47,839 bases of DNA. It comes from an uncultured Roseovarius sp. Its GTDB lineage: Bacteria; Pseudomonadota; Alphaproteobacteria; Rhodobacterales; Rhodobacteraceae. Shown here piece after piece: positions 4,753 through 34,985 of the stretch. The position numbers and the translations under genes are program-made. Position 1 is the stretch's first letter. Each line of letters begins with the position of its first letter. The notes below the pieces were generated by a model. That model searched no databases and had not been told where the DNA came from. It saw nothing but the letters and a program-made list of their open reading frames with translations. The stretch is from the NCBI GenBank assembly GCA_947499555.1, contig CANMOU010000007.1, forward strand, positions 1 to 47,839, written 5' to 3'.

Positions 4753-6138
4753 ATGGCAACTGCATTTGGCTTGGCACCCCGTCTTCTGGTTTTGGCAATG
4801 GCGTTGGTGGTGTCTGCGTTGTGGTCCACGGGTGCGCGCGCCGAGAGCGCGGCAAAGCTGCCCGCCTATGTGATCGAGCAGGTTGGCGCGCCTCCGGCGA
4901 TCCCGCAAGGGGGCCTCTCCGAGGAACTGAAATCCGCCGTGAAGGTGGCCTTCGTTGACAGCATCGAAGGCTCGACCTGGGGGACGGACCAGGAGGTGGC
5001 ATTGCGCACCATTGCAGAGTCCAAGGACCCGCGCCTGGCTTGGCCCATCAGCGATCTGATGCGGTTCGCGCCGGGCCATGCGCTTAATGTGCAGCTGGCC
5101 AATGCCGCCGCCACCTTGCTTGAGATTGACACGCCTCAGGAAAATCACTGGGGGATCGTGACCGACCACCTGATTGCATGGGATGTGCCTGCGCCGCCGG
5201 ACTACCTTGCCGCCAAGCGTGCCATCTTTACCGGGGTCATTCCAGGTTGGGACAAGATCTTTGTCGAAGGTGAGATTGACTGGCGGCTGGTCTCCTGGGG
5301 TGGGGTGCTGATTGATGATCGCGGCTATGACAAGACGGACGAGCAATGCAACTGCATCCCGGCCGCCGATAATCCAGAAGTCAGCAGCGCCGCCGAGGCG
5401 ACCTGGCTGAAGGACAGCGATATCGTCTTTGGTGTGGTGGTGAATGGAGAGGCACGCGCCTATCCGCGCCGGATCATGGAAGTGCGCGAGATGGTGAATG
5501 ATACGCTTGGCGGGCGTGATCTTGGGATTCCCTATTGCACGCTTTGTGGTGCCGCGCAGGCTTATTTCACAGATGAAGTTCCGGATGGTGTGGAACGCCC
5601 GATCCTGCGCACCTCGGGTCTTTTGATCCGATCCAACAAGGTGATGTATGACGTGCGCACGCATTCGGTGTTCGACACGTTTCTGGGTCATGCTGTAACC
5701 GGGCCGTTGGCCAAGAAGGGCGTAAAATTGAGCCAGGCAGGGGTTGTAACGACCGACTGGGGGACCTGGAAGGCGCAGTACCCAGAGACAACCGTGCTGG
5801 TCGAGGCGCTGGCGCTTGGCCGCGATTTCGATTTCCGCAATGGCCGTGACGCGAATGGTCCGATTTTCCCGGTAGGGGATGTGGACCCTCGCCTGCCGGT
5901 GCATGAAGACATCATCGGCATCATCACTGCCTCGGGAAAACCAATTGCCTTCCAGCGCAGCAAGGCGATGGCCGCACTTCAGGGCGGCAAGGAAATCGGT
6001 GTGGAAAACGTGCGGCTGAAATTGGATGCTGGCGGGATCAAAGCCGTGGACGCCAATGGCAACGACCTTGGCAGTCATCAGGCCTTCTGGTTTGCCTGGT
6101 CACAGTTTCACCCTGATACCGAGCTTTGGAGCGGGTGA
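4753..6138 (+). CDS. Exported DUF3179 domain protein
   Basis: A 461-residue exported protein. The Sec signal peptide occupies about residues 1-30 (LLVLAMALVVSALWS, cleavage after ARA). The DUF3179 signature lies in the second half: FGVVVNGEARAYPRRIMEV, GIPYCTLCGAAQAYF, RTSGLL, DVRTHSVFDTFLG. The family's function is not established. The paired cysteines in CTLC, and CNC near residue 200, suggest a metal or disulfide site. ATG 4753 with AGGAAAGGG upstream is preferred over 4696 because it puts the signal peptide at the N-terminus. It is inserted between nusG and rplK and is followed by a hairpin at 6175-6197. Confidence 0.85.
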   Translation: MATAFGLAPRLLVLAMALVVSALWSTGARAESAAKLPAYVIEQVGAPPAIPQGGLSEELKSAVKVAFVDSIEGSTWGTDQEVALRTIAESKDPRLAWPISDLMRFAPGHALNVQLANAAATLLEIDTPQENHWGIVTDHLIAWDVPAPPDYLAAKRAIFTGVIPGWDKIFVEGEIDWRLVSWGGVLIDDRGYDKTDEQCNCIPAADNPEVSSAAEATWLKDSDIVFGVVVNGEARAYPRRIMEVREMVNDTLGGRDLGIPYCTLCGAAQAYFTDEVPDGVERPILRTSGLLIRSNKVMYDVRTHSVFDTFLGHAVTGPLAKKGVKLSQAGVVTTDWGTWKAQYPETTVLVEALALGRDFDFRNGRDANGPIFPVGDVDPRLPVHEDIIGIITASGKPIAFQRSKAMAALQGGKEIGVENVRLKLDAGGIKAVDANGNDLGSHQAFWFAWSQFHPDTELWSG

Positions 6139-31711: not shown

Positions 31712-31840
31712 ATGGAAGACCCGATTTGCCCCCTTTGTCGCCGTCCCATTCCGCCCGATGTCCGGCAAAGCCTGCATCACCTGGTGCCGAAGCTGAAGGG
31801 CGGCAAGGGCGGGCCAACGGTGCTTTTGCATCAGATCTGC
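31712..31840 (+). pseudogene. HNH endonuclease gene, 5' part, interrupted by the transposon
   Basis: Codons 1-43 of a small HNH nuclease: MEDPICPLCRRPIPPDVRQS, then LHHLVPKLKGGKGG and TVLLHQIC. The reading frame runs into the transposon and stops four codons later (TAG at 31850-31852). The missing part continues in frame at 34978-35151 and begins with HNEIH, so the insertion separates the two halves of the catalytic motif. Joined, they would encode 97 residues, a normal length. The remnant cannot make an active nuclease. Confidence 0.93.
31832..31839. repeat. Target-site duplication, left copy (CAGATCTG)
   Basis: The 8-bp palindrome CAGATCTG lies just outside the left inverted repeat. The second copy is at 34978-34985. 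Removing the element and one copy restores the HNH reading frame exactly. Eight base pairs is the usual duplication length for IS1595-family elements. Confidence 0.92.
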
Positions 31841-31865
31841 GGCCTTAGGTAGCAAGCGCACCAAG
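31840..31865 (+). repeat. Left terminal inverted repeat
   Basis: 26 bases beginning CGGCCTTAGGTAGC. It matches the reverse complement of 34952-34977 except at positions 8 and 17. Confidence 0.93.
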
Positions 31866-31920
31866 CATCTGCTGGATCAAAAGTGTACGCTTGTCGCCAA
31901 AGACAAAAGCCCACTTTACG

Positions 31921-32310
31921 ATGCCCAGATCATACTTTCGCCCGATCAAAGAAGAGACGGTTATCAGCGTCCTGCACTACCTGCGCCAAGTCGCAGTGCG
32001 GGATGGACTGGATACCCTGCCACACGTTAACGCGTTGCTGGCCGCACGAGGGGTTGAACCCGAGGAGTTGGAGGTGCCGCGCAAGACGCCCAAGGCATTC
32101 CGCAAAGGTGAGTTGCGTCGGTTGGTGCTGGAAGCGCTCAGAGATGGACCTCAGACGGGCGCAGAGATTGCGCGCAAGGTACAGGGGCAGAAGCCTGAGT
32201 TAACGTTCAAGCAGACTTACAAGCGGGTTTATATCTGTCTGAATACGCTTAAGGGGCGCGGTGTGGTGAGGCTTGAAAAACACCTGTGGATCATTCTTGA
32301 TAGAATTTGA
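31921..32310 (+). CDS. Passenger gene A, putative winged-helix protein
   Basis: 129 residues. The C-terminal half (KGELRRLVLEALRDGPQTGA, then EIARKV, KQTYKRVYICLNTLKGRGVV, RLEKHLWIIL) reads as a winged helix-turn-helix: helix, turn, recognition helix rich in Lys/Tyr/Arg, then a two-strand wing. The N-terminal half may mediate dimer or partner contacts. ATG 31921 is the first ATG; a TTG at 31891 could add ten residues, and neither has a clear ribosome site. It ends in TGA, and its last codons overlap the -35 box of the downstream tRNA promoter. A regulator of that promoter is a natural guess, not shown. No known family recognised. Confidence 0.7.
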   Translation: MPRSYFRPIKEETVISVLHYLRQVAVRDGLDTLPHVNALLAARGVEPEELEVPRKTPKAFRKGELRRLVLEALRDGPQTGAEIARKVQGQKPELTFKQTYKRVYICLNTLKGRGVVRLEKHLWIILDRI

Positions 32311-32336
32311 CAGGCGATAATTGATAAGCTATCAAT
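32307..32336 (+). promoter_or_regulatory. Promoter and overlapping palindrome before the UUA-anticodon tRNA
   Basis: Perfect -35 TTGACA (32307-32312), 17-bp spacer and TATCAA -10 (32330-32335) predict a start near 32342, two bases before the tRNA. A 17-base inverted repeat, ATTGATA-AGC-TATCAAT (32320-32336), covers the -10, as expected for an operator where a repressor would block polymerase. Confidence 0.75.
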
Positions 32337-32343
32337 CAAGAGT

Positions 32344-32431
32344 GCCCGCATGGCGGAATGGTAGACGCAGCGGTTTTTAAAACCGAGGTCCTGTGCGGGG
32401 CGTGCCGGTTCGAGTCCGGCTGCGGGCACCA
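32344..32431 (+). tRNA. Leucine-type (class II) tRNA with anticodon UUA, predicted UAA suppressor
   Basis: An 88-nt class II cloverleaf. Acceptor GCCCGCA pairs with TGCGGGC, discriminator A73, encoded CCA. D arm is GCG/CGC. The anticodon stem is GCGGT with ACCGA, giving four pairs and a G27-A43 mismatch, and the loop TTTTAAA places TTA at positions 34-36. The variable arm is 17 nt and can pair GTCC with GGGC. The T arm is GCCGG/CCGGC. The body is leucine-like, but UAA (Leu) would require TTTAAAA in the loop. UUA pairs with the stop codon UAA. LeuRS does not read the anticodon, so charging with leucine is plausible. The mismatch and low-GC loop leave decay as an alternative. Confidence 0.82.
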
Positions 32432-32454
32432 CGTCGCAACCGAAAGGAAACCAA

Positions 32455-32856
32455 ATGGCGAGTGCAAAAGATCAGATGAAAATGCTTCAAGCAGAACTTG
32501 AACGGGTTCGGGATGAAATCTCGAAACTGAAAGTGGAAGAAGCACTGCTTGTCAAAATGCTTGGCAAAATGGGAGATAAAACCGTTTCTAAGGGTGGCAG
32601 AACACGATCACCTGCGGTTAAACCAGTGGTGCTTGATATAATGAAGGAGGTTGACGGGCGGGGCGCAACCACCGCCGAAGTCGATGAACGGGTACGACAT
32701 GTTGTGCCGTCTGTAGCGAAGGATACAGTTGGTTCTATTCTGTCGCGCCTCAAAAGTGACGGCGCTCTGACTTACATCGGGGAGCGTTATTATTTGAAGG
32801 GAAAAGAGCCTAGCGCAGAAGACGTTAACGCTATGGCGCTTAGAATGATTAAGTGA
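32455..32856 (+). CDS. Passenger gene B, coiled-coil plus winged-helix-like protein
   Basis: 133 residues. Residues 1-40 form a charged amphipathic helix with heptad character (QMKMLQAELERVRDEISKLK). Residues about 55-118 look like a winged helix (VVLDIMKEVDGRGATTAEVD, then GSILSRLKSDGALTYIGERY with a YYLKG wing). A strong ribosome site (AAAGGA) precedes ATG 32455, only 23 nt after the tRNA, so tRNA and gene B are probably one transcript. It ends in TGA, not TAA. A perfect hairpin follows, then the second tRNA. Family not recognised; nucleic-acid binding is inferred from the fold pattern only. Confidence 0.75.
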   Translation: MASAKDQMKMLQAELERVRDEISKLKVEEALLVKMLGKMGDKTVSKGGRTRSPAVKPVVLDIMKEVDGRGATTAEVDERVRHVVPSVAKDTVGSILSRLKSDGALTYIGERYYLKGKEPSAEDVNAMALRMIK

Positions 32857-32860
32857 ATTG

Positions 32861-32898
32861 GAAACGCCGGGGTTGCAGCCCCGGCGTTTCTGTTTGGT
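32861..32898 (+). terminator. Perfect 12-bp hairpin after gene B
   Basis: GAAACGCCGGGG (32861-32872) pairs with CCCCGGCGTTTC (32879-32890), followed by TGTTTGG. It could terminate, but the next tRNA starts 10 bases later with no visible promoter of its own. It may therefore act as a leaky terminator or as a processing stem in the tRNA precursor. Confidence 0.7.
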
Positions 32899-32899
32899 A

Positions 32900-32976
32900 G
32901 CCCTCGTAGCTCAATCGGATAGAGCAACCGTGTGCTAAATGGTAGGGTGCTGGTTCAAGTCCAGCCGGGGGCACCA
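32900..32976 (+). tRNA. Arginine-type (class I) tRNA with anticodon GCU
   Basis: A 77-nt class I cloverleaf. Acceptor GCCCTCG pairs with CGGGGGC (one G-U pair), discriminator A73, encoded CCA. The D loop has A20 after GG. Anticodon stem is ACCGT/ATGGT with one G-U pair, and the loop GTGCTAA puts GCT at 34-36. The variable loop is 5 nt. The T arm is GCTGG/CCAGC. GCU reads serine codons AGC/AGU, yet serine tRNAs have a long variable arm and this does not. A20, C35, U36 and A73 are arginine identity elements known from E. coli, so ArgRS charging is predicted. G32 is unusual (normally C or U). A conventional annotation would label it Ser by anticodon. Confidence 0.82.
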
Positions 32977-33030
32977 ATCGGAATAGACTAAGTTCCTGTG
33001 CGGGGTCTTTGTCGCATCCAGCTTTAGCCT

Positions 33031-33061
33031 ACAAAAAAAATAAAATTGACGCACGTCAATC
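33031..33061 (-). terminator. Rho-independent terminator of the transposase gene
   Basis: On the minus strand a 7-bp stem, ATTGACG/CGTCAAT (33045-33060), is followed by TTTTATTTTTTTTG. It lies just past the transposase stop at 33082 and insulates the tRNA side of the element. Confidence 0.85.
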
Positions 33062-33081
33062 TTGTTGACTCATCAAGTCTA

Positions 33082-34044
33082 TCAATTTGCTTTTTGCCAA
33101 TATCCCTTCCATTGGCGGCTGACCGGCGATCCCATTGCATTACTGACCAGCCGATGCGCTAATTCTCCATTGTCGCTACGACGATTATCTTCCAGCCATG
33201 CAGCGTGGTTCGCATACTGGTAAAGATGTTGTGGGCTGACGCCATGATGTTGACCTGTCACCATGCGGCGCAGGCGCGCAAAGTAGCTTTCTGCCATGTT
33301 GGTATGCTTGCCGTGGTCGCTGTAGCATTCGCTGTGGTTCACGCGCTCGACTTCCCAACCCATATGTAGCAAATCCCAATGGCTGGCTTCGTCGGCTGAC
33401 ATCGTGGCCATACGGTCTACGTTCTCACGTGCCAACGCCACTCCTTCGAACTCATTCTTGGTGACAATAGGCAGCGTACGACCTTCACGCTCGCGCAGGG
33501 CCACAACTACCCGACGCTTGCCGGTCTGGTTTTCTTTCAGGCGGCGATCCACACGGTTCTCTTTGACGTTCGCAGGGCGAACGTGGCCACCAAAGTATGC
33601 GCCATCAATCTCAACATGGCCCTCTAGAACCTCACCAGTCTGGACCTCTTGCGCCATCGCCTCACGCAGCTTGTGAGCCAGCACAAAGGCTGTCTTGTAT
33701 TGGCAATCCAGATCGCGGGACAACTGAATCATGGACACACCTTTGGCCGCGTTCACGATGATGCAGATAGCGGCCAGAAGATCTACAAAGGCCATCTTGC
33801 GGCTGGCAAAGATGGTGCCGGACGTAACCGAGAATTGGTGGTGACAGTTCTTGCACTTGAACTTGCGGCGCGTGGTGATGCTGTAGGTCTTGTCATGGCT
33901 ACAACGGGGACAAATTGCCTCGCCATTGGTCTCAGGCCAACGCATTTCACAGAACGTCTTATATGCCGCGTCCTCACCGCCCTTGTAGATCGAGCGAAGG
34001 CTGAGTGTGCGTGATGCGGCTGAGAGTAAGAAGTGCTGTGCCAT
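33082..34044 (-). CDS. IS1595-family (ISXO2-like) transposase
   Basis: 320 residues, full length for the family. N-terminal zinc ribbon with Cys45, Cys48 (CPRCSH), Cys64 and Cys67 (CKNCHHQFSVTSGTIF). The catalytic core starts with VEIDGAYFGG (Asp147), a second acidic site in TMSADEAS (Asp218) and HGKHTNMAESYFARLRR (Asn249, Glu252) as the third site. No frameshift or stop is present, so the enzyme looks intact. It is divergent from the DUF6471 gene; the 102-bp gap holds palindromes that may control both. The C-terminal part, GKAR-like in some relatives, ends RQWKGYWQKAN. Confidence 0.95.
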   Translation of the reverse strand: MAQHFLLSAASRTLSLRSIYKGGEDAAYKTFCEMRWPETNGEAICPRCSHDKTYSITTRRKFKCKNCHHQFSVTSGTIFASRKMAFVDLLAAICIIVNAAKGVSMIQLSRDLDCQYKTAFVLAHKLREAMAQEVQTGEVLEGHVEIDGAYFGGHVRPANVKENRVDRRLKENQTGKRRVVVALREREGRTLPIVTKNEFEGVALARENVDRMATMSADEASHWDLLHMGWEVERVNHSECYSDHGKHTNMAESYFARLRRMVTGQHHGVSPQHLYQYANHAAWLEDNRRSDNGELAHRLVSNAMGSPVSRQWKGYWQKAN

Positions 34045-34057
34045 TTGTATCGTATCC

Positions 34058-34145
34058 GTTACCTATGTAACAGATATGGTACGTTGACGTATCACATACA
34101 AGGGCATATGTAATAAATATATTACTTTTTATATCACAGGTGATA
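34058..34145. promoter_or_regulatory. Palindromes between transposase and DUF6471 genes
   Basis: GTTAC-CTAT-GTAAC at 34058-34071 and TATCAC-AG-GTGATA at 34132-34145 are perfect inverted repeats. A further half-site, GTATCAC, lies near 34090. The second palindrome ends one base before the DUF6471 ATG and covers its ribosome site. This AT-rich gap must contain both promoters; autoregulation is inferred. Confidence 0.5.
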
Positions 34146-34146
34146 C

Positions 34147-34353
34147 ATGCCCGAGCAAACCGAGTGGGAAATGAAGGCCGCAAACCTTCTCAAGGCGGAG
34201 TTGAAACGTAAGGGCGTGACTTACGCTGGATTGGCGGAATTAATTGGAGAGAAAGAGGTGAATATCCGCAATAAACTGTCCCGAGGGAAGTTTAGTGCGG
34301 CGTTTCTTCTTCAGTGTCTTGCTTCGATAGAATCTGACGCTCTTCGAATTTGA
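34147..34353 (+). CDS. DUF6471 helix-turn-helix-like small protein
   Basis: 68 residues. TEWEMKAANLLKAELKRKGV, TYAGLAELIGEKEVNIRNKL, SRGKFSAAFLLQCLASI is the DUF6471 pattern, which looks like a compact Cro/C1-type helix-turn-helix. Members are frequently found next to IS1595-type transposases, so a regulatory role in transposition is plausible. Its 3' end overlaps the convergent membrane-protein gene by 62 bp, an overlap unusually large for a host gene pair. Confidence 0.85.
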   Translation: MPEQTEWEMKAANLLKAELKRKGVTYAGLAELIGEKEVNIRNKLSRGKFSAAFLLQCLASIESDALRI

Positions 34354-34885
34354 GCCTAGGCAACATTGAAGAATACATACTGCGCGCAAAATCATTTTTG
34401 CCGCTTTCGATATACTTCAAGTATTCAGCAAAAAAAGCATTTACATCAGGGACATCACTCAACTGTCCGGGAACCTGAGGCAGGTCAAAGAAACTTAGCC
34501 GCTTATTCAAATCGCTAAGGTGTTTCTCAACGTCTATAAAATGACGAATGAACCAGTTGTTGCGGAAAATTAGTACGCCTGTGTGCGCTAAGTTTTTCAT
34601 GCGCCATCTTTGCCAAAAGGTGCTTGTCCTTTCAGCTTTGGTCAACAAGTGCACACACCACTCGTAACAAATACCACCCGAGATAAACAAACTCACATAA
34701 AGCACTGCGGGAGTTGTCGCAAAATCTATGATTTTGTCCAGGGTCATGCTGATCCAGCCCCATCCTTGCGGGACCAGATCGGAGAAGCCCGAAGAAGCAG
34801 CAAAGTTCTCAATGTTAAGGCCGAGTATGACCAACACCGGCCAAGTAAAAAGCCATCTAACACATTTCGACAATAGATCGCGCAT
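34292..34885 (-). CDS. Passenger membrane protein, family not recognised
   Basis: 197 residues with two hydrophobic helices at about residues 10-28 (LFTWPVLVILGLNIE) and 55-75 (TPAVLYVSLFISGGICYEW). A soluble, charged C-terminal part of about 115 residues follows, rich in aromatic and charged residues. GC is clearly lower than in host genes. Start at ATG 34885 with weak TTAGG upstream. It is the only passenger ending in TAA; a UAA readthrough would add 32 residues before a TGA, antisense to the DUF6471 gene. Function unknown. No toxin or transporter motif seen. Confidence 0.65.
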   Translation of the reverse strand: MRDLLSKCVRWLFTWPVLVILGLNIENFAASSGFSDLVPQGWGWISMTLDKIIDFATTPAVLYVSLFISGGICYEWCVHLLTKAERTSTFWQRWRMKNLAHTGVLIFRNNWFIRHFIDVEKHLSDLNKRLSFFDLPQVPGQLSDVPDVNAFFAEYLKYIESGKNDFARSMYSSMLPRLKFEERQILSKQDTEEETPH

Positions 34886-34951
34886 GACCTAAGAATTGCA
34901 CAATACACAAGTGAAAGTGGAGTCGTATTCATTCTAACCTCGATCTGAGGC

Positions 34952-34977
34952 CTTGGTGCGTTTGCTACCGAAGGCCG
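34952..34977 (-). repeat. Right terminal inverted repeat
   Basis: Reverse complement begins CGGCCTTCGGTAGC and matches the left repeat at 24 of 26 bases. Confidence 0.93.
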
Positions 34978-34985
34978 CAGATCTG
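34978..34985. repeat. Target-site duplication, right copy (CAGATCTG)
   Basis: Second copy of the 8-bp direct duplication; it leads in frame into the HNH gene 3' part (CAG ATC TGC CAC AAT). Confidence 0.92.

Follow-up and report, generated by a model that had tools for sequence, protein, structure and literature searches.

A recurrent tRNA–gene module with altered anticodons and a matched variable-arm repeat, carried by an IS1595-family transposon of Roseovarius

Introduction

The IS1595 family, with tIS that carry passenger genes, was reportedly described by Siguier et al. in 2009, and allo-tRNAs are said to have been described by Mukai et al. in 2017. The locus considered here touches both subjects. 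It is a 3138-bp IS1595-family transposon at positions 31840–34977 of a 47,839-nt stretch of DNA (the window) from an uncultured Roseovarius sp. (Rhodobacteraceae; assembly GCA_947499555.1, contig CANMOU010000007.1), with an exact copy of CAGATCTG on both sides according to a joint scan for terminal inverted repeats and target-site duplications (TIR+TSD scan). Inside it, a leucine-like tRNA gene with a non-leucine anticodon (tRNA1) stands directly 5′ of a small gene of no named family (gene B), and the variable arm of the tRNA is repeated 3′ of B. Coordinates without a locus label refer to the window; other loci and genomes bear L and G numbers.

The element resembles the IS1595 insertion sequences and tIS in its transposase family, inverted ends, 8-bp duplications and passenger genes (PMC5704250). 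The part of that source available to us does not mention tRNA passengers, whereas the module described here accompanies at least two transposase subgroups and also occurs where no transposase was detected. Allo-tRNAs are likewise natural tRNAs whose anticodon, ochre included, does not fit the body; in the available portion of PMC7609411 they have an 8/4 or 9/3 acceptor branch and mostly serine or alanine identity. In contrast, tRNA1 has a 7/5 branch, a leucine-like body, a linked gene B and a matched variable-arm repeat. The account of tRNAs with 4-bp anticodon stems (PMC13092985) also ties a mismatch at positions 27–43 to stop-codon readthrough, but it centres on tRNATrp CCA, and the words ‘mobile’ and ‘transpos-’ are absent from its text. 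No description of such a module was found in the open literature, most subscription papers lying outside that search. The vehicle is thus an ordinary kind of transposon; the module inside it fits no system found and may be undescribed.

The tRNA1–B module in the window

The module and its immediate surroundings comprise the following features.

32307–32335, + strand: sigma70-like promoter TTGACA-N17-TATCAA before tRNA1, its −10 box ending 8 nt before the tRNA, with overlapping TTGATA/TATCAA boxes
32344–32431, + strand: tRNA1, class II, leucine-like body, A73, CCA encoded, anticodon UUA (reads UAA), G27.A43 mismatch (tRNA calls, Rfam, host comparison)
32389–32400, + strand: variable arm of tRNA1, TCCTGTGCGGGG, present twice in the element (repeat 32386–32400 versus 32991–33005)
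32455–32856, + strand: gene B, 133 aa, with a probable N-terminal coiled coil and a putative winged-helix-like domain, no named family (open reading frame (ORF), profiles, alignment)
32861–32890, no strand assigned: strong hairpin after B, −27.3 kcal/mol, z −5.0, terminator-like but lacking a clear T run (folding)
32900–32976, + strand: tRNA2, class I, arginine-like body (nearest host tRNA-Arg CCU with the anticodon masked), anticodon GCU (tRNA calls, Rfam, host comparison)
32980–33019, no strand assigned: hairpin region with the second variable-arm copy (32994–33005); candidate antisense RNA on the − strand (repeat search, folding)

With its anticodon masked, tRNA1 matches host tRNA-Leu UAA best and has A as discriminator; its anticodon differs from that of Leu UAA at position 35. 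These traits, namely class II, nearest leucine and A73, are those of a leucine-accepting tRNA; leucine charging is predicted. The acceptor stem has 7 bp and the T stem 5 bp, the ordinary 7/5 branch; an allo-tRNA identity was rejected for tRNA1, which has no 8/4 or 9/3 branch. Since the host tRNA set includes Leu UAA, CAA, UAG, CAG and GAG, Ser GCU, and Arg UCU and CCU, neither tRNA1 nor tRNA2 is a needed isoacceptor.

Comparison of B proteins with Pfam, NCBIfam, PHROGs, PADLOC and PDB sequences gave no named family over threshold. The best PHROGs match (E 1.9e-4; PHROGs has no cut-offs) is to a family of unknown function, and a weak winged-helix match, MCM4_WHD (0.005), lies below the cut-off. 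Searches with B-type proteins, two against plasmid records and one against phage records, found nothing.

Recurrence of the module

The tRNA1–B pair is a recurrent module. A search with B of 394 genomes of the family found three besides its own, all three with a UUA tRNA directly 5′ and an IS1595-type transposase nearby, one truncated. A profile scan of genome contigs gave 28 B loci, and in 26 of these a complete class II tRNA immediately precedes B, never with a leucine anticodon; in L157 tRNA1 is broken by NN and in L158 no tRNA1 was found. The hosts on genome contigs include Rubellimicrobium, Rhodobacter, Rhodovulum, Cognatishimia, Thalassovita, Roseovarius, Methylorubrum, Methylobacterium, Nitratireductor, Jiella, Sphingopyxis, Novosphingobium, Sphingomonas and Methylocystis. 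Viral contigs yielded seven loci, two of them repeating earlier ones, and all seven tRNAs have a non-leucine anticodon. The five non-duplicates, fetched after the rule had been formed, serve as a held-out test: the anticodon is non-leucine in 5/5 and the variable-arm repeat is present in 3/5, one of the remaining two breaking off just after B. L124, from an earlier search, also conforms in both respects. A scan of 391 genomes of the order gave six loci besides its own; L172 and L175 share their tRNA1 with L147 and L143, and L177 has no tRNA.

The counts below refer to 33 distinct tRNA1s: 26 from genome contigs, five from viral contigs, L124 and the window. L111 and L124 are counted once, and L112, L113 and L115 are represented by the tRNA1s of L136, L139 and L159. 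Outside the count stand L167, L170, L172 and L175, with the same tRNA1s as L138, L150, L147 and L143, together with L157 (NN), L158 (none found), L177 (no tRNA) and L133. In the last (5284–5620, G443) a distant B-like gene is followed by two tandem leucine-like class II tRNAs whose anticodon is UGC (Ala), with no match nearby to any of three IS1595 transposase queries.

The original prediction had raised the question whether the set recurs inside other copies and at other targets, and it does: in 10 of the 26 loci tested (the window, L137, L139, L143, L145, L148, L152, L155, L162 and L163) tRNA1, B and a transposase are enclosed by inverted ends (21/24 or better) and an exact 8-bp duplication. 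The same scan found recognisable inverted ends and no exact duplication in L140, L141, L147 and L159, and nothing convincing in the remaining loci. The module-linked transposases fall into at least two subgroups, those of the window and L112 types being 28% identical; the closest full relative is L152 (Jiella pelagia), with a transposase 69% alike, tRNA1 UGA and tRNA2 GCU.

The module was also found where no IS1595 transposase was detected nearby (L138, L149, L150, L151, L154 and L161), in L138 beside a Pfam Phage_integrase gene. Conversely, long transposase matches occur in 24 of the 393 other family genomes, and none of 32 fetched loci of close transposase relatives contains a B match. As the module occurs without a detected transposase and close transposase relatives occur without it, the set is a module of its own. 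Compared with plasmid records, the whole element matched 16, in transposase- or tRNA-sized pieces only, and none covered 80% of it.

Altered anticodons

The anticodons of the 33 tRNA1s are UUA (20), UGA (4), UCC (3), UGG (2) and UUU, GGA and ACC (one each), with one 8-nt loop; none (0/33) is a leucine anticodon. The 8-nt loop, in L144 (5887–5974), possibly marks a frameshift suppressor. For nearly all of the 31 tRNA1s compared, the nearest class II host tRNA is a leucine tRNA, that of L150 being nearest to a serine tRNA; several Rhodobacteraceae tRNA1s owe to their acceptor stem an equal or higher score against class I Arg CCU.

The UUA and UGA forms have 7-nt anticodon loops that retain U33 and A37. 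In the anticodon stem, positions 27 and 43 form a G.A or A.A mismatch in 18/20 UUA, 4/4 UGA and 1/1 UUU tRNA1s and in none of 43 host tRNAs. According to work cited in the available part of PMC13092985, an anticodon-switched tRNAThr with a natural G27–A43 mismatch reads UAG better than the paired version. The mismatch in tRNA1 fits tRNAs selected for readthrough rather than decaying copies. By its anticodon UUA, tRNA1 of the window would be an ochre suppressor; insertion at UAA is a prediction, to which the stop codons of the element genes lend no indirect support. Codon recoding inside the element was considered and rejected: no gene was seen to need UAA readthrough, no systematic search for UAA-interrupted ORFs having been made, and UAA stops are not avoided.

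Such a tRNA could be a benign suppressor or codon-supply tRNA that aids the host in decoding rare codons or nonsense mutations. The most frequent anticodon is UUA (20/33), and the 27–43 mismatch favours readthrough (PMC13092985, within its accessible text), as this explanation would have it. It is nevertheless quite unlikely: the anticodons UGA, UCC, UGG, UUU, GGA and ACC would place leucine at Ser, Gly, Pro and Lys codons, the module's own host has normal tRNAs for leucine and most such codons, and no element gene seems to depend on readthrough.

tRNA2 is present in 10/33 modules, and in all nine other modules tested its anticodon stem has only 3–4 of 5 pairs. Being optional and degenerate in its stem, it makes ‘two tRNAs’ a less essential description than tRNA1, B and the variable-arm repeat. 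In Rhodobacteraceae-type modules a conserved 38–50-aa ORF (of the YRPYITTKDGRKIWAKWYGKKAFRI or YRASIRLRNG..AFRI type) replaces tRNA2 between B and the repeat; a motif search found it in 11 of 12 loci (L136–L144, L147 and L148). The degenerate stem and the short ORF in place of tRNA2 would suit a further explanation, in which the tRNAs are punctuation: cleavage by RNase P/Z at them would release the B message, and the anticodon would be neutral. A neutral anticodon, however, should sometimes be a leucine one or decay; none of the 33 is leucine, and U33 and A37 are kept in the UUA and UGA forms. The variable-arm repeat is also left unexplained, and this role is very unlikely.

A repeat matched to the variable arm

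A repeat of the module's own variable arm, 10–17 nt long, lies 3′ of B in 31/33 modules, in 24 distinct matched sequences. The two modules without it are L164, which ends just after B, and L169, with none within 620 nt. All 27 loci first examined hold a copy of their own arm 3′ of B; that of L140, where the transposase frame is also broken, has one mismatch. The repeat changes in step with the arm: over the 27 loci the sum of own-pair scores is 626, against a mean of 361 and a maximum of 427 in 2000 permutations. The window taken alone has a repeat score of 24, against at most 20 in 200 shuffles, and at L140, L147 and L151 shuffles reach the observed score; the strength of the repeat evidence thus lies in the set. 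By eye, the stem closing the copy seems compensated (GGAAG/CTTCC, GGAAA/TTTCC, GGAAT/ATTCC, GGTAG/CTACC and others), and the copy region in Rhodobacteraceae also matches the D arm (GACGCA) and 3′ end (GCCACCA) of the tRNA, a short hairpin replacing the anticodon arm.

Other explanations of the repeat were weighed as well. It may be a protein-binding site, most simply for B, which would bind the arm in tRNA1 (gene or RNA) and the hairpin in autoregulation or as a decoy, with no antisense RNA. B resembles a dimeric DNA-binding protein by alignment and by the weak MCM4_WHD match, the variable arms are imperfect palindromes, TTGAT boxes occur in both flanks of window-type modules, and in nine of the 27 loci, the window among them, the hairpin is no less stable on the sense strand than on the antisense strand. 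On the other hand, with 24 matched forms of the arm and the match kept throughout, base pairing is simpler than repeated re-matching by a protein, and the closing stem appears, by eye and by folding, to vary with compensation. We consider a protein-binding site unlikely.

The repeat might instead regulate the transposase, the 3′ untranslated region (UTR) of whose message would carry a tRNA1 antisense, so that tRNA1 limits transposition. In the majority of the IS1595 copies examined, the hairpin does closely follow the stop codon of the convergent transposase. In L152 and L163, however, a codirectional transposase precedes tRNA1, yet the repeat again lies at the module's far end, so that 3′-UTR control was rejected as a general role; the repeat is also kept in the six modules without a detected transposase (L138, L149, L150, L151, L154 and L161). 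Transposase control thus retains only a slight probability. That the repeat is a general trait of the transposon group was rejected as well. In 22 related transposase loci, oriented and tested, no 12-nt repeat was found between the 220 nt by the transposase stop and the 1.4 kb beyond; the window has one of 12 nt.

Integrative elements often carry partial tRNA copies, and a direct repeat could be an att-like or recombination site left by integration beside a tRNA gene; a Phage_integrase gene is found near L138. The copy, however, is internal to the transposon and not at its ends. The 2.3-kb element L143 has no recombinase: leaving aside frames opposite the transposase or B, these two genes are its sole ATG-initiated ORFs of 80 aa or more. 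A single crossover, moreover, predicts no separate D-arm, variable-arm and 3′-end matches with a replaced anticodon arm. An att-like origin is scarcely probable.

Strand, folding and promoters

The z of the closing stems is −1.08 for antisense, −0.68 for sense and −0.18 at random places, the antisense value being the lower one in 20/27 loci; the hairpin as such folds better on the antisense strand in 18/27. RNAalifold energies (antisense/sense) are −26.6/−21.7 for ten Rhodobacteraceae and −16.2/−13.4 for four others. RNA from the opposite strand has a mean duplex energy of −68.2 kcal/mol with its own tRNA1 and −51.7 kcal/mol with the tRNA1s of other modules, self-structure being ignored; on the same basis, antisense RNA of the window reaches −65.5 with its own tRNA1 versus −37.5 to −51.0 with ten host tRNAs. 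Beyond the copy, the promoter-like score on the opposite strand has a mean z of 0.99, against −0.14 on the control side (27 loci); these sites are best placed in Rhodobacteraceae, mostly as TTCACC-16-TACATT or similar. Window-type modules have at that place a block like CACGTCAATCYTGTTGAT instead (10/11, by eye), which may be a promoter or an operator. Taking the antisense strand as the transcribed one is our own choice, held with modest confidence and not proven.

Before tRNA1 the promoter-like score has a mean z of 1.64 (31 loci), and the −10 box ends 5–16 nt ahead of the tRNA in 13/31. TTGATA/TATCAA boxes number 22 in 12 upstream regions of 140 nt from window-type modules, where 0.07 is expected per region, the motif having been picked after viewing the same sequences. 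Neither the promoter-like site before tRNA1 nor the variable-arm repeat (32994–33005) figured in the original prediction.

Proposed mechanism

The module may encode a mistranslating tRNA under the joint control of B and an antisense RNA directed at the tRNA's variable arm, in the manner of a toxin–antitoxin system. Bacterial leucyl-tRNA synthetase (LeuRS) does not read the tRNA anticodon, and leucine charging of tRNA1 would be expected for that reason. The charged tRNA would insert leucine at UAA in the window, or at non-leucine codons elsewhere. B, a probable winged-helix protein, would control the tRNA1–B promoter through the overlapping TTGATA/TATCAA boxes. A short RNA made from the other strand of the hairpin that follows B or tRNA2, complementary to the variable arm, would keep tRNA1, or its precursor, from acting. 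No part of a leucine tRNA is freer to become unique than the variable arm, and an antisense RNA aimed at it would therefore spare the leucine tRNAs of the host. The net behaviour would be toxin–antitoxin-like, with the tRNA as toxin, the antisense RNA as antitoxin and B as regulator. Any wrong anticodon would suffice, matching the spread seen, and antisense specificity would be possible at the variable arm, the site of the match. To the bacterium or the transposon the module might serve for addiction, defence or copy-number control. Type I toxin–antitoxin systems share the proposed antisense RNA control of a harmful product; here, in contrast, the proposed toxin is a tRNA and not a protein, and the antisense RNA is predicted only.

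Several observations weigh against this mechanism. The 27–43 mismatch is absent from all seven tRNA1s with UCC, UGG, GGA or ACC, and UAA stops are not shunned in UUA modules (B 3/19, transposase 5/15). B occurs without tRNA1 in L158, and a class scan found no tRNA within about 1.5 kb at 7 of 9 distant B-like places (L116–L119 and L121–L123). Against shuffles the whole hairpin is unremarkable (mean z −0.50 sense, −0.58 antisense, 27 loci), which lowered confidence in the model. In the window the antisense hairpin folds no better than the sense one (−16.5 versus −17.0; −9.6 versus −12.0), and RNAalifold favours sense in three Rhizobiales (−32.4 antisense/−33.4 sense) and four sphingomonads (−21.9/−24.2). 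Judged by raw duplex energy, a module's own tRNA1 is the best partner in 15/27 loci, a result due in part to arms shared among close relatives. Inspection by eye of tRNA2-type modules showed no good −10 box after the antisense-strand TTGACG block. As to a linked antidote, the matched repeat is strong, and the evidence from strand, fold and promoters is modest or mixed. We put the antisense-controlled mistranslating tRNA forward tentatively, as a reading with a real but somewhat less than even chance of being correct.

The transposon and its remaining genes

The element has the hallmarks of the IS1595 family: a DDE transposase, terminal inverted repeats and an 8-bp target duplication. Its remaining features are as follows.

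31832–31839, no strand assigned: target duplication, left 8-bp copy CAGATCTG (arm comparison, TIR+TSD scan)
31840–31865, + strand: left terminal inverted repeat (arm comparison, TIR+TSD scan)
31891–32310, + strand: gene A, 139 aa, possible winged helix with sub-threshold matches only (ORF, profiles)
33082–34044, − strand: IS1595-family (ISXO2-like) transposase, 320 aa (family profiles)
34147–34353, + strand: DUF6471 gene (profile E 4.3e-23)
34292–34885, − strand: 197-aa protein, labelled a membrane protein in the original prediction, no family found (ORF, profile searches)
34952–34977, − strand: right terminal inverted repeat (arm comparison, TIR+TSD scan)
34978–34985, no strand assigned: target duplication, right copy CAGATCTG (arm comparison, TIR+TSD scan)

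The inverted arms 31832–31865 and 34952–34985 are 34 nt long and 94% complementary with the 8-bp copies included; without them the match is 24/26, and arm comparison and the TIR+TSD scan agree on the 26-bp ends and the 8-bp duplication first read from the sequence. The transposase scores 134.9 bits with NCBIfam transpos_IS1595 (cut-off 75) and 1.2e-34 with Pfam DDE_Tnp_IS1595, in keeping with its earlier ISXO2-like assignment. The DUF6471 gene was also recognised correctly; a DUF6471 match occurs at 27 of 32 related transposase loci, and the gene may be part of the transposon's own machinery. Gene A has a match in 18/32 of these loci. Genes A and B had been called small winged-helix-like proteins: both genes are present, but the winged-helix label comes from sub-threshold matches only. 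The two tRNA genes inside the element, 32344–32431 (tta) and 32900–32976 (gct), both exceed the Rfam tRNA cut-off. The idea of an IS1595-family transposon with two tRNA genes inside is therefore supported, with two refinements: the module is independent and tRNA2 is optional.

The element is present in a single copy in its own genome, where it interrupts an HNH gene whose frame had been seen in the sequence to join perfectly across the insertion. A query of the joined flanks gave an uninterrupted match across the insertion point in 22/29 congeneric genomes, over most of the query length in 21 and over part only in G837. One intact congener product passes the Pfam HNH cut-off (24.4 versus 21.4 bits). 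Given the uninterrupted gene in congeners and this product, the empty HNH site is real.

Other tRNA-like genes were seen in passing. Within L148 (5460–5537), ARAGORN calls a 78-nt tRNA-Leu (gag) 5′ of tRNA1, class I-sized and perhaps spurious. L084 (5816–5889) and L089 (7114–7186) have a tRNA-like gene (Ala CGC, no CCA) 105–110 nt beyond the transposase and on its strand, with no B module; this ARAGORN tRNA-Ala(cgc) was rejected as a module tRNA, being a different tRNA-like gene, and is maybe a second kind of tRNA passenger. Elsewhere in the window's own genome (G000:C1:87773-88069, L067) four unusual tRNAs (Trp CCA, Arg UCU, ACG and CCG) stand close together, unlike the chromosomal copies and perhaps derived from a mobile element.

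Implications

It is possible, rather than probable, that the module represents a new class of addiction or defence system, in which a leucine tRNA with a wrong anticodon would be silenced by an antisense RNA and a winged-helix regulator and carried between Alphaproteobacteria by IS1595 elements. The variable arm would then act as a lineage specificity tag, as loop sequences do in plasmid antisense incompatibility. If this is true, mistranslation would serve mobile DNA, under control, as a weapon or a means of addiction; a tRNA could act as a toxin and an RNA as the antidote to a tRNA. There would be natural transposon-borne ochre and missense tRNAs, and deliberate bacterial mistranslation would become a question directly testable with laboratory strains.

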